Source: Tindallia sp. (lineage in GTDB: Bacteria > Bacillota > Clostridia > Peptostreptococcales > Tindalliaceae). Taken from it: a DNA stretch of 57,671 bases. The DNA is taken from positions 1 to 57,671 of the forward strand of contig SLLE01000116.1 in assembly GCA_007134225.1 (NCBI GenBank), written 5' to 3'. Both the position numbers and the translations under genes were made by a program. A model generated the notes under the pieces. It was not told the origin of the DNA. It ran no database searches and saw nothing but the letters and a program-made list of their open reading frames with translations. Below, piece after piece: positions 11,880 through 42,975 of the stretch (within the stretch, counting starts at the first letter, position 1; each line of letters opens with the position of its first letter).

Positions 11880-12087
11880 CGAATAGAAGGTCTGTGGTTG
11901 AAAGTCCATGCCAGTCGCAGGCAAAGGGACCCACGTAACACAGCCAAAAGTGCTGTGGAGCATGGTGCGGCTTAGGAGTAAGTCCTGCCGGGCTTATATG
12001 CCCGAGAGGGGTAGTAGTGACGGCGAACCCGGAGCGAACCTCCCGGCAGGCGAGTGTGGGGTCAAAGACCAGGTCAGCTTCTATTCG
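11880..12087 (+). ncRNA. raiA-motif RNA
   Basis: A 208-nt structured region upstream of the hpf/raiA gene. The 5' end CGAATAGAAG (11880-11889) pairs perfectly with the 3' end CTTCTATTCG (12078-12087), closing a compact fold. Inside are GAAAGTCCATGC and GC-rich helices such as GCCGGG/CCCGGC and ACCCACG/CGAGTGTGGG. Size, position before a long-form HPF gene and autonomous promoter/terminator match the known raiA motif of Firmicutes, a noncoding RNA and not a riboswitch. The assignment rests on memory of the motif and on context. The GAAAGTCC segment also occurs in RNase P RNA, but the remaining core is absent. Confidence 0.8.
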
Positions 12088-12105
12088 TTTTTACTTCAGG
12101 ACCAA

Positions 12106-12137
12106 AGTCTGATGGTAACCATCGGGCTTTTTATTTT
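12106..12137 (+). terminator. Terminator of raiA RNA
   Basis: AGTCTGATGG and CCATCGGGCT pair (with G-U pairs) around TAA and are followed by TTTTTATTTT. This ends the raiA RNA well before hpf, so the RNA is a separate transcript. Confidence 0.75.
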
Positions 12138-12164: not shown

Positions 12165-12268
12165 TCATCCACACAAATGAATCCGCTAATTCCAAGTTAT
12201 CAACAGAGTTACCCACATTATCCACAGAAAACACCTGTTTTTATCCACAATCCACAGAGTTATCCACA
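12165..12268 (+). promoter_or_regulatory. Cluster of seven DnaA-box-like 9-mers
   Basis: Seven same-strand matches to the DnaA box TTATCCACA lie in 104 bases. Three are perfect (12218-12226, 12241-12249, 12260-12268). Three have one mismatch (TCATCCACA 12165-12173, TTATCAACA 12197-12205, TTACCCACA 12209-12217), and CAATCCACA at 12248-12256 has two. TAGTAGAAA (12289-12297), resembling DnaA-trio repeats, follows the last box. No dnaA or dnaN gene is nearby, so this is a cluster outside a classical oriC, or an origin in an unusual place. Binding is inferred from the consensus only. Confidence 0.7.
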
Positions 12269-12283
12269 GGCAGGAGACAAAAG

Positions 12284-12409
12284 ATGAATAGTAGAAAAGG
12301 AATTCGAAAGGAATTGACTGGTTTGAAGGGAAAGATTCGGGTATATTATCAGATACATCAAGGACATGGCATCAGACAGAAAAAAGAGGGAAAGGGGCTG
12401 GAGATATGA
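12284..12409 (+). CDS. Possible 41-residue basic small protein or leader peptide
   Basis: ATG at 12284 is preceded by CAGGAG at a good distance, and the frame runs to a TGA that overlaps the hpf start (ATGA at 12406-12409). The product would be 41 residues, strongly basic (about a dozen Lys/Arg), with no signal peptide or membrane segment and no family I recognise. Perfect coupling to hpf and a ribosome binding site argue for translation. Against it, the first codons lie on the TAGTAGAAA tract next to the DnaA boxes, so the sequence may be constrained for another reason. Confidence 0.4.
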   Translation: MNSRKGIRKELTGLKGKIRVYYQIHQGHGIRQKKEGKGLEI

Positions 12410-13726: not shown

Positions 13727-16411
13727 TTGAAAGAATTATTTGAAAAAGTATTTGGAAGCTACAGCGACCGGGAGTTAAAGCGCCTGGACAAGCAGGTAAA
13801 AGCCATTGAAGCTCTGGATGAAACTTACAGCAAACTGACAAATGAAGAATTGAAAAACCAGACGCAGGTTTTTAAGGATCGCATCGAGCAGGGACAGAAT
13901 CTGGATGATATCCTGCCGGAGGCCTTTGCCACTGTTCGGGAAGCGGCTTTCCGGGTGCTTGGCATGAAGCATTATCGGGTCCAGCTTTTTGGTGGAATTG
14001 TCCTGCATCAGGGAAGAATTGCCGAGATGAAAACCGGGGAAGGTAAAACCCTGGTGGCAACGCTGCCGGTTTATCTGAATGCCCTGACAGGAAAAGGCGT
14101 CCACGTAGTAACCGTTAATGATTACCTGGCCAAGCGTGACCGGGAATGGATGGGGAAAATCTATGAATTTCTGGGACTTACCACCGGTGTCAACGTACAC
14201 GGTTTAATGCCGGAAGAGAAAAAAGAAATTTATGAGGCAGACATTACCTATGGTACCAACAACGAGTTTGGTTTTGATTACCTTCGGGATAATATGGTGA
14301 TTCGAAAAGAGAACATGGTGCAGCGAGGCCTGAACTATGTCATCGTGGATGAGGTGGATTCCATCCTCATTGATGAGGCCAGAACGCCGCTGATTATTTC
14401 TGGACAGGGTGAAAAATCTACCCAGATGTATGCCTTGGTAAATCAGTTTGTTAAACTTCTTAAAAACGAAGATCACTACAGCGTGGATGAAAAGGCCAAT
14501 TCCGTGGCTCTGACGGAAGAAGGGGTGGAACGGGCGGAGAAACATTTTTCTGTGGAAAACTTGTCGGATCCGGAGAACATGGAGCTGTCCCATCATATCA
14601 ACCAGGCCCTGAAAGCCAACACCTTAATGAAACGGGATAAAGACTATGTGGTGAAAGACGGCGAAGTGATTATTGTAGACGATTTTACCGGTCGTTTGAT
14701 GTTTGGACGCCGCTACAGCGACGGCCTTCACCAGGCCATTGAAGCCAAGGAAGGCATTGAGGTGCAGCGGGAATCCAAGACCCTGGCCACCATTACCTTT
14801 CAGAACTATTTCCGGATGTATGAAAAAATCTCCGGAATGACAGGAACGGCCAAAACCGAGGAAGAAGAATTCAAAGCCATTTATGGCATGGATGTAGTGG
14901 AAATTCCCACTAATGAGCCGGTCATCCGGGAGGATCATCCCGATGCCATTTATAAGACAGTGAATGCAAAGCACAACGCCGTAGCTCAGGATATTGAGGA
15001 ACGGAACCAGATTGGTCAGCCTATTCTGGTGGGAACCATCTCCATCGAGCATTCGGAACTATTTTCCAGCCTGTTGAAGAAAAAGGGCATTCCCCATGAA
15101 GTGTTGAATGCCAAGCATCACGAGCGGGAAGCAGACATCGTTGCCCAGGCCGGTCGTAAGGGCGTCGTGACCATTGCCACGAACATGGCCGGTCGTGGAA
15201 CGGATATCCTGTTGGGTGGTAATCCGGAATTTATGGCGAAAAAAGACTTGAAGGCACGAGGTTATGACGACGAGGTCGTTGGAATGGTCACTGCCCTGAC
15301 CATACCGGATGATGAAGAAACACAGGAAGCGGTCAGGGAATATGAGCGCTTGCACGAAAAATACAAGCAGGAAACAGATTTGGAACAGCGCCAGGTCATT
15401 GAGGCCGGCGGCCTTCATATCATTGGTACGGAACGCCACGAATCCCGACGGATTGATAACCAGCTTCGTGGTCGTGCCGGTCGTCAGGGAGACCCGGGCT
15501 CCAGCCGTTTTTTTATTTCGCTGGAAGACGACTTAATGCGCCTCTTCGGAGGCGAACGGATGCAGACCATGGTGGATAAACTGGGCATGGACGAAGACGT
15601 TGCCATTGAGCACAGCATGCTGTCCAAATCCATTGAAAACGCCCAGAAGAAAGTGGAAGGACGCAACTTTGGTATTCGAAAACATGTACTGCAATACGAC
15701 GATGTGATGAACAAGCAACGCGAAGTCATTTACAATGAACGTCGGAAAGTGCTGGATGGTCAGGACATGAAAGATCAGGTCATGGCCATGGTGGAAACCA
15801 TCATCGATACCAGCATTGAACTCTATACTGCCAACAGCCAGTATCCGGAAGAATGGGATCTGGAAGCACTTGAGAAGTTGTTGCAACAGAAATTCGGCCT
15901 GGAAAACTTCTTCTCCACGGATGACGTGGAAAATATGACAAAAGAAGGGCTGAAGGAAGAAATCTTCGAAAAATGCAAGGCCTCCTATGCGGAAAAAGAA
16001 ACAGAAATCGGGGAAGAACGAATTCGTGAAGTGGAACGGGTTATCATGCTTCGGGTGGTGGACACTAAATGGATGGACCACATCGATGCCATGGATCAAC
16101 TGAAGCAGGGAATCTCACTCCGGGCCATCGGCCAGGTGGATCCGGTTCGGGCTTATCAGATGGAAGGCTTTGAGATGTTCCAGGAAATGATTCAGAATAT
16201 CCAGGAGGACACAGTGAAGCACCTGTTCTTGATGGAGAAAAGCACCCAGGTGGAACGAAAAGCCGTAGCAAGGGTGAACCCACCGGCAGGCGCCCCTGGT
16301 GCTGTCGGCGGCGGGAAGCCCCAGCCGGTGAAAAGCGAAAAAACCCCGGGACGCAACGATCCCTGCCCTTGCGGCAGCGGAAAGAAATATAAGAAATGTC
16401 ATGGCGCATAA
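13727..16411 (+). CDS. secA: Preprotein translocase ATPase SecA
   Basis: The 894-residue motor that drives unfolded preproteins through SecYEG. Seen are Walker A MKTGEGKT (101-108, K107), the DEAD-like [17 protein letters not shown] (about 205-222), the preprotein cross-linking region, the helicase motif [29 protein letters not shown], and the C-terminal zinc motif [13 protein letters not shown] (C880, C882, C891, H892) that binds SecB or ribosomes. Starts at TTG with GAGGTGA upstream. One full-length copy, with no sign of an accessory SecA2. It is followed by repeats and then prfB, the common Firmicute order. Confidence 0.98.
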
Positions 16412-20254: not shown

Positions 20255-20263
20255 GAAACTATA

Positions 20264-20377
20264 ATCTTCGGGGTAGGGTGAAATTCCCGACCGGCGGTGA
20301 CAGTCCGCGAATCGGCCTTGGGCCGACTGATCCGGTGCAAATCCGGAACCGACAGTAAAGTCTGGATGAGAGAAGAT
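20264..20377 (+). ncRNA. FMN riboswitch (RFN element)
   Basis: The classic RFN landmarks are all present: a closing stem ATCTTC.../GAGAAGAT, GGGTGAAATTCCCGACCGG, CGGTGACAGTCCGCGA, GATCCGGTGCAAATCCGG and CCGACAGT. It binds FMN and should turn off the downstream riboflavin uptake gene when FMN is plentiful. Confidence 0.97.
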
Positions 20378-20401
20378 GGCATTGATGAGATGTTCAAACC
20401 T

Positions 20402-42838: not shown

Positions 42839-42866
42839 TTGCTTTTTGCTCCATTTTTGCTATGAT
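42839..42866 (+). promoter_or_regulatory. Promoter of guanine riboswitch-permease
   Basis: TTGCTT (42839-42844) and TATGAT (42861-42866) with a 16-base spacer; transcription would start just before the aptamer. Confidence 0.6.
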
Positions 42867-42876
42867 AAAGAAAATA

Positions 42877-42950
42877 ACTCAATCATATAATGCCGATAAT
42901 ATGGTTCGGCAGTCTCTACAGAGTCACCGTAAATGGCTCTACTACGAGTG
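42877..42950 (+). ncRNA. Purine (guanine-type) riboswitch
   Basis: The aptamer landmarks CATATAAT, ATATGG, GTCTCTAC and CCGTAAATGGCTC are present, with P2 (GCCGA/TCGGC) and P3 (AGAGTC/GGCTCT). In the final segment CTACTACGAG the specificity position reads C, as in guanine/hypoxanthine sensors; adenine sensors have U. It should shut off the permease when guanine is abundant. Confidence 0.95.
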
Positions 42951-42975
42951 AGGCCTGTGCCGCTTTGCGGCAAAC

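Follow-up and report, generated by a model that had tools for sequence, protein, structure and literature searches.

A conserved extra-oriC array of predicted DnaA boxes with a fixed 12/9 spacing near hpf in Clostridia and Bacilli

A dense array of candidate DnaA boxes lies on one strand upstream of hpf, the gene for a ribosome hibernation-promoting factor, in a draft genome of Tindallia sp., and its core, three boxes starting at offsets 0, +12 and +21 (the 12/9 triplet), recurs in both Clostridia and Bacilli. With a probability that we put at roughly 55%, the array is an extra-oriC cluster, ancient at the comFC-hpf-secA locus, which gathers ATP-DnaA and delays re-initiation; the main rival to such a role in titration and timing is control of hpf. 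What the sequences show is the boxes, their geometry and its conservation, the gene neighbourhood, the distance to dnaA in relatives and the lack of trios; we infer the common descent of the copies, the binding of DnaA, its preference for the ATP form and the role in titration and timing. The window below means the whole stretch of 57,671 nucleotides that was analysed.

The array and its neighbours in the window

An earlier note, made from the letters of the window, had claimed seven same-strand 9-mers with 0–2 mismatches, three of them perfect, in 104 bases. All are present, and all lie on the + strand (Table 1): six boxes with at most one mismatch, three of them perfect, occur in 12165–12268, and the 9-mer at 12248, with two mismatches, is the seventh. 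The claim of a density above chance was also borne out, the maximum number of same-strand boxes per 104 bp being six in the window versus one or two in 40 first-order Markov simulations. On both strands of the whole window there are 25 matches with at most one mismatch; 100 shuffles averaged 13.64 and always stayed below 25. Pairs of perfect same-strand boxes no more than 30 bp apart are found in the draft only in this array and just downstream of dnaA. Like clusters of the Bacillus subtilis type, the array has several predicted DnaA boxes close together between genes and away from oriC. Of 90 arrays upstream of hpf, 35 share with the window an outer box at −30, −31 or −32 that has no more than one mismatch.

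The neighbours are those that had been named, raiA RNA upstream and hpf downstream, and a 202-aa ORF lies between hpf and secA. The terminator-like hairpin behind raiA RNA is one of two in the scan, compared with 1.8 in shuffles, and by itself is not above chance. The candidate promoter of hpf, which is sigma-B-like by consensus, starts about 50 bp past the last box of the array, and its GGGTATA is identical across six aligned family members. From this promoter-like element, hpf of the window is predicted to be possibly under a stress or sporulation sigma factor. The window also has an FMN riboswitch at 20260–20381 and a purine riboswitch at 42863–42964, both ordinary.

Table 1. Features of the raiA RNA-hpf-secA region, in positions of the window
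Feature	Position	Strand	Basis or remark
raiA (ModT) structured RNA	11881–12086	+	Rfam RF03072, 190.9 bits; upstream neighbour, outside the array
Terminator-like hairpin 3′ of raiA RNA	12104–12130	+	Consensus scan
Candidate DnaA box at −32, TCATCCACA	12165–12173	+	9-mer match
Candidate DnaA box 1 of core triplet, offset 0, TTATCAACA	12197–12205	+	9-mer match, at most one mismatch
Candidate DnaA box 2 of core triplet, +12, TTACCCACA	12209–12217	+	9-mer match, at most one mismatch
Candidate DnaA box 3 of core triplet, +21, TTATCCACA	12218–12226	+	Perfect; abuts box 2
Candidate DnaA box 4, +44, TTATCCACA	12241–12249	+	Perfect
Weak candidate DnaA box	12248–12256	+	Two mismatches; overlaps box 4
Candidate DnaA box 5, +63, TTATCCACA	12260–12268	+	Perfect; present in all six aligned family members
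TAGTAGAAA	12289–12297	+	String present; DnaA-trio identity rejected
Probable hpf promoter, GTTTGA-N12-GGGTAT	12321–12344	+	Sigma-B-like by consensus
hpf, long hibernation-promoting factor, 178 aa	12406–12942	+	PF02482, PF16321 (Ribosom_S30AE_C), TIGR00741 (HPF/YfiA family)
secA, downstream neighbour	13727–16411	+	SecA Pfam domains

Conservation of the spacing

Loci of raiA RNA were found in 141 of 198 genomes of the order, and 90 of them were taken, the 30 best and 60 picked by family, the picks having followed sight of array-matching genomes (including G014 and G055, which were picked, and G064, among the 30 best). At 50 of the 90, hpf lies downstream within the fetched DNA, the window being one of these 50 spacers. 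The 12/9 triplet is present in 49 of them with 1–4 mismatches in its 27 positions; the fiftieth (L288) has 13 mismatches, and the best of 1,000 shuffled spacers has 7. Among 144 spacings compared on the hpf strand only, 12/9 is the unique best in 47 of the 50 spacers and ties in three; L247 carries the triplet inverted. Of the 49 triplet-bearing spacers, 36 have a further box with at most two mismatches at +43 to +46, and 28 have one at −33 to −29. Four genomes of the genus, when aligned, agree fully in 52 of 54 box columns versus 60 of 126 surrounding columns, and by this comparison the box columns appear to be under selection. The check that had been proposed, whether relatives with the same order of raiA RNA and hpf keep the boxes in this spacer, thus came out in favour of the boxes (49/50).

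Is the companion of the array raiA RNA or hpf? A downstream hpf was not found at the other 40 raiA loci, of which 38 lack the array (at least 8 mismatches) and two (L025 and L030) hold the triplet. Array loci of other families were scanned for raiA RNA, which was seen at 6 of 20 and not seen within the fetched DNA at 14. In G055 the array is 215 bp from hpf, on its upstream side, and raiA RNA lies about 8 kb off. The companion of the array is hpf and not raiA RNA; an element belonging to raiA RNA was rejected on the two counts (38/40 and 14/20), and a special link to this RNA was not supported. The accessible part of one paper names the comFC and raiA (that is, hpf) genes as the commonest neighbours of raiA RNA and another gene as following that of C. 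difficile (PMC11706538).

Distribution in Clostridia and Bacilli

The Clostridia sample was searched with a strict pattern, TTATNNACANNNTTNNNNACANTNTCCACA, the control being the pattern read backwards. Of 391 genomes of the class, 81 match, at 88 places in all, with few arrays per genome and zero in the control columns. The scan of genome contigs gave at least 116 stretches, 80 among the matches listed, and its range is that of the sample; order and class labels of all samples were deduced from named relatives. Genes were named by Pfam or NCBIfam on one example each and then by BLAST to the examples, the ComF model scoring below its cut-off, and inspection by eye supplied the names of spoIIAA, glmU, pheS, hisD, ftsZ, the glycosidase and the ECF-type transporter.

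The 87 Clostridia places besides the window were fetched and sorted by neighbour. Immediately upstream of hpf, with array and gene on one strand, lie 36 of the 88, at a distance of 209 bp in the window and of 213–690 bp (median 318 bp) in the other 35. A further 16 lie beside a gene for a solute-binding-protein transporter and four by a zinc-finger (zf_Tbcl) gene alone; two are between dnaA and dnaN, and 30 elsewhere. Around the 20 transporter or zinc-finger places, hpf is 2.5–3.8 kb downstream on the same strand in 10, on the opposite strand in one (L075) and not found within the fetched DNA in nine. Array and hpf are apart in at least some lineages, because hpf was not found in 8 kb on either side of the array in G276 and G369, or is on a different contig (G217, G232 and G264). 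Five places inside reading frames (L064, L077, L117, L175 of Emticicia and L183 of Saprospiraceae) look like chance matches; all were kept in the counts.

A survey by family sampled a single genome per family, for 60 of the 80 families outside the order (f67 and 19 others were left out), and 56 of the 60 genomes have an hpf locus. A triplet with at most five mismatches is present within about 1.1 kb upstream of hpf at 10 of the 56 loci (families f23, f26, f31, f33, f36, f37, f41, f57, f63 and f72), f17 has DnaA boxes upstream of hpf in another spacing, and at 45 loci no good triplet was found within that distance. Seven of these 45 (f14, f30, f32, f47, f48, f52 and f59) have an array beside a zinc-finger or transporter gene of the same genome. 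The array is widespread, yet absent or moved in many lineages.

The Bacilli sample was centred on Oceanobacillus damuensis (G569), chosen because it matches, and yielded 32 places in 31 of 299 genomes of the class, with zero in the control columns. Near hpf-secA lie 27 of the 32, and hpf was seen at 26 (G610 being counted twice); G869 has comFC and secA without a match to hpf. At all 26 the array is upstream of hpf and inverted, 0.1–0.7 kb away in five and 1.6–7.3 kb away in most others, and comFC is on the far side of the array in 16 Bacilli places. Paenibacillus contaminans is one carrier of an inverted array at hpf. The other places are two at tsaD, two (L443 and L444) where roughly 8 kb to each side contains none of the probed genes, and one (L417, truncated by its contig) with the transporter only. 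Contig C6 of G610 carries two triplet arrays about 2 kb apart, at 14470 and 16436 (L386 and L419), near the transporter and hpf.

Pooling gave 236 unique arrays, an uneven sample mostly from pattern matches: 90 upstream of hpf, seven inverted at hpf, 25 at the zinc-finger or transporter gene, 23 at tsaD (gcp), four between dnaA and dnaN, six at sigH, five at galU, four each at proA and lepA, one at spoIIAA and 67 at other places. An array near galU exists besides the hpf array in genus g127 (L044, L066, L067, L069 and L070) and in Ruminiclostridium cellobioparum (L186), and such arrays lie, by eye, between a glycosidase-like gene and a small zinc-binding-like ORF with an ECF-type transporter. 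Other lineage-specific places of the triplet are after sigH (L091–L093 and L165), at spoIIA genes (L119 and L120, by eye), at proA (L104, L105, L107 and L126) and in the lepA region (L109–L112). At these lineage-specific places away from hpf, the triplet looks as if the element had moved.

Relation to dnaA and oriC

The distance to dnaA was taken only where both share a contig, in 18 genomes; it ranges from 0.14 to 0.79 Mb, several values assuming a circular contig and genome sizes being rounded for G410, G878, G284, G220 and G221. In Clostridia it is 563 kb (G529), 249 kb (G233), 772 kb (G237), 420 kb (G328), 442 kb (G390), 439 kb (G546), 705 kb (G369), 195 kb (G055), 304 kb (G014), 380 kb (G512), about 0.34 Mb (G410) and about 0.79 Mb (G221), and the second arrays of genus g127 are 108–125 kb from dnaA (G328, G390 and G546). 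The Bacilli values are 170 kb (G798), 211 kb (G807), 179 kb (G655), 162 kb (G683), 403 kb (G577) and roughly 0.14 Mb (G878). The places measured are syntenic, and their distances are not independent of one another. The hpf locus itself accounts for some of the proximity to dnaA: in three genomes whose hpf has no array (G258, G284 and G220), the gene is 18–26% of the genome from dnaA, and hpf tends to be in the half that contains dnaA. In G577 (Tepidibacillus decaturensis), a match to the C-terminal part of dnaA at C1 2702139–2702312 has an internal TAG stop and a short open frame, either a sequencing error or a broken gene.

The own genome of the window is a draft of 199 contigs, with the array on C126 and dnaA on C127 in the order rnpA-dnaA-dnaN-recF-gyrB, flanked by DnaA boxes on both sides. 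The earlier note had read TAGTAGAAA as DnaA-trios beside the last box and had allowed for an unusually placed origin, and neither reading held. The string begins 20 bp after the last box, reads TAGTAG on the box strand, which is the wrong polarity, is two units long and is not conserved within the genus; its identity as a DnaA-trio was rejected. True trios in three dnaA-dnaN arrays are CTA repeats on the TTATCCACA strand, 4 bp past the last box, and the C. difficile trio likewise reads CTACTACTA in the accessible text (PMC7561715). A simple pattern found no trio of the right polarity in the window, and is not decisive alone, since it is also blank at the regions flanking the own dnaA. Trio-like repeats within 70 bp after box 3 follow one of the 90 arrays upstream of hpf and none of the 7 inverted, 20 transporter-linked or 23 tsaD arrays. 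The highest A+T per 40 bp is 0.75 in the spacer versus 0.82 and 0.75 in two dnaA-flanking regions. A displaced origin was rejected, with dnaA elsewhere beside its own flanking boxes and the array devoid of trios of the right polarity.

In three of the four dnaA-dnaN intergenic arrays (L108, L115 and L140), the 12/9 triplet stands directly before the DnaA-trios of oriC. Because of these three, the 12/9 spacing may also serve as the double-strand part of an unwinding core, and the sharing of the triplet suggests that oriC and the clusters outside it may have an assembly unit in common. Three boxes precede the trio in oriC of both C. difficile and B. subtilis, according to the available part of one paper (PMC7561715). 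The triplet is common to the array and the basal unwinding system of oriC, which comprises DnaA boxes, a GC cluster, DnaA-trios and an AT-rich unwinding element; unlike oriC, hpf arrays lack trios (with the single trio-like case in 90), often have extra boxes and are not at dnaA.

Comparison with known DnaA-binding clusters

Extra-oriC DnaA clusters of B. subtilis are located at ywlC, ywcI, yydA, trmE, gcp/ydiF and sda. Like the array, they have several DnaA boxes, mostly intergenic and outside oriC, and the gcp/ydiF cluster shares its site with the triplet of other species, found at tsaD; unlike the array, they are not described, in the parts of the sources available, as having a place conserved between Clostridia and Bacilli or a fixed 12/9 spacing. 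The gcp/ydiF cluster binds DnaA with high affinity and prefers ATP-DnaA, as the accessible text of one study describes, which also calls the sequence basis of this selectivity undefined for want of examples; an hpf site is not named in 14 rows of its table, nor yvyD in the accessible text (PMC4447404). The sda cluster lies upstream of a gene and strongly prefers ATP-DnaA in vitro (PMC4447404, in part), whereas the gene at the array is hpf in many lineages, though not in every one, and distance and orientation vary. Deletion of all six clusters causes early initiation, an effect strong only for joint loss (PMC5295017, in the portion consulted), and early initiation is also given in the accessible part of PMC13220808; according to the available part of one review, no B. 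subtilis cluster has been found to play a significant part in initiation. E. coli datA and DARS, like the array, are non-coding DnaA-binding sites off oriC and affect initiation, and they depend on IHF or Fis, according to the portion consulted (PMC5295017). A search of the literature, covering few subscription papers, turned up no account of either a DnaA cluster at hpf or the 12/9 spacing; extra-oriC clusters of DnaA boxes are known, and in this partial literature the hpf placement and the 12/9 spacing have no precedent that we found.

Cellular function and alternatives

An outline of the process that we favour is as follows. The fixed triplet at 0, +12 and +21, frequently flanked by boxes near −31 and +44, would be the core of the predicted cluster, most likely kept at comFC-hpf-secA since before Clostridia and Bacilli split. 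ATP-DnaA most likely assembles cooperatively on the triplet. Lying a few hundred kb from dnaA, as measured in relatives, the array would be duplicated soon after initiation, and the duplicated array would then keep DnaA off oriC and help to delay re-initiation. By analogy with the early initiation that follows loss of the six B. subtilis clusters, titration is the most likely role. The independence of the array from any one neighbour speaks for it, as the array may be inverted, kilobases off, or at tsaD, sigH, proA, lepA or galU, and what speaks against it is that many lineages lack the array, the strict pattern matching only 81 of the 391 genomes in Clostridia and 31 of the 299 in Bacilli. 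Titration alone does not account for the preference of the array for the surroundings of hpf. The earlier suggestion of an oriC-like or Bacillus-type titrating cluster stands in part: an extra-oriC cluster is kept in relatives, and the origin is not upheld.

It is hardly credible that the array is a chance cluster or a local repeat without function. Many single boxes are expected from AT-rich sequence, but the backwards pattern found nothing in either class, and the spacing of the boxes and their gene neighbourhood are both conserved. A second or displaced replication origin, which the oriC-like density of boxes and the triplets before trios between dnaA and dnaN would recommend, is very improbable given dnaA on another contig with boxed flanks of its own, the near absence of trio-like repeats after arrays and the lack of a right-polarity trio in the window by a pattern that is blank at the own dnaA flanks as well.

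Control of hpf in cis has more in its favour and is possible, if on balance unlikely: ATP-DnaA bound upstream of the hpf promoter would tune hpf transcription and so connect the state of replication with ribosome hibernation. DnaA at the sda promoter of B. subtilis is a proposed precedent for such regulation. No other single place of the array is as common as the one upstream of hpf on its strand, the array of the window ends shortly before a conserved promoter-like element, and B. subtilis clusters (sda and gcp/ydiF) strongly favour ATP-DnaA in the accessible text of PMC4447404. The link between DnaA and hpf expression, also raised in the earlier note, is weakened because the distance varies (209–690 bp even among the nearest, kilobases in 10 Clostridia places), the array inverts in Bacilli with hpf mostly kilobases off, and genes intervene; the same triplet also occurs beside unrelated genes. 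A fixed place relative to one promoter, as at sda, is not what was found, with distances of 209–690 bp or kilobases and with inversion, and a purely hpf-specific promoter site as the whole story was rejected in view of the Bacilli inversion, the kilobase distances and the other places. Both roles might be combined, the site being kept at hpf because a DnaA sink or sensor also tunes its neighbour in some lineages. This would account for the attachment to hpf-secA as well as the tolerance of insertions and inversion, but it is less simple and nothing separates it from either of its parts, and we regard it as improbable.

Biological significance

The recurrence of the exactly spaced array around hpf in many Clostridia and Bacilli suggests an old control site for the timing of chromosome copying, and titration of ATP-DnaA by an extra-oriC cluster is the reading that we prefer. 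It is a more doubtful proposition that a single ancestral trio-less 12/9 element of Bacillota senses ATP-DnaA, with the double task of timing initiation and of coupling the state of replication to ribosome hibernation; if this is true, the element would copy the double-strand part of the oriC unwinding core and be fixed at comFC-hpf-secA. The triplet offers a defined 30-bp module for testing ATP-DnaA selectivity, and one neighbourhood together with one exact spacing in both classes would make the array a strong candidate for a general site of initiation control.
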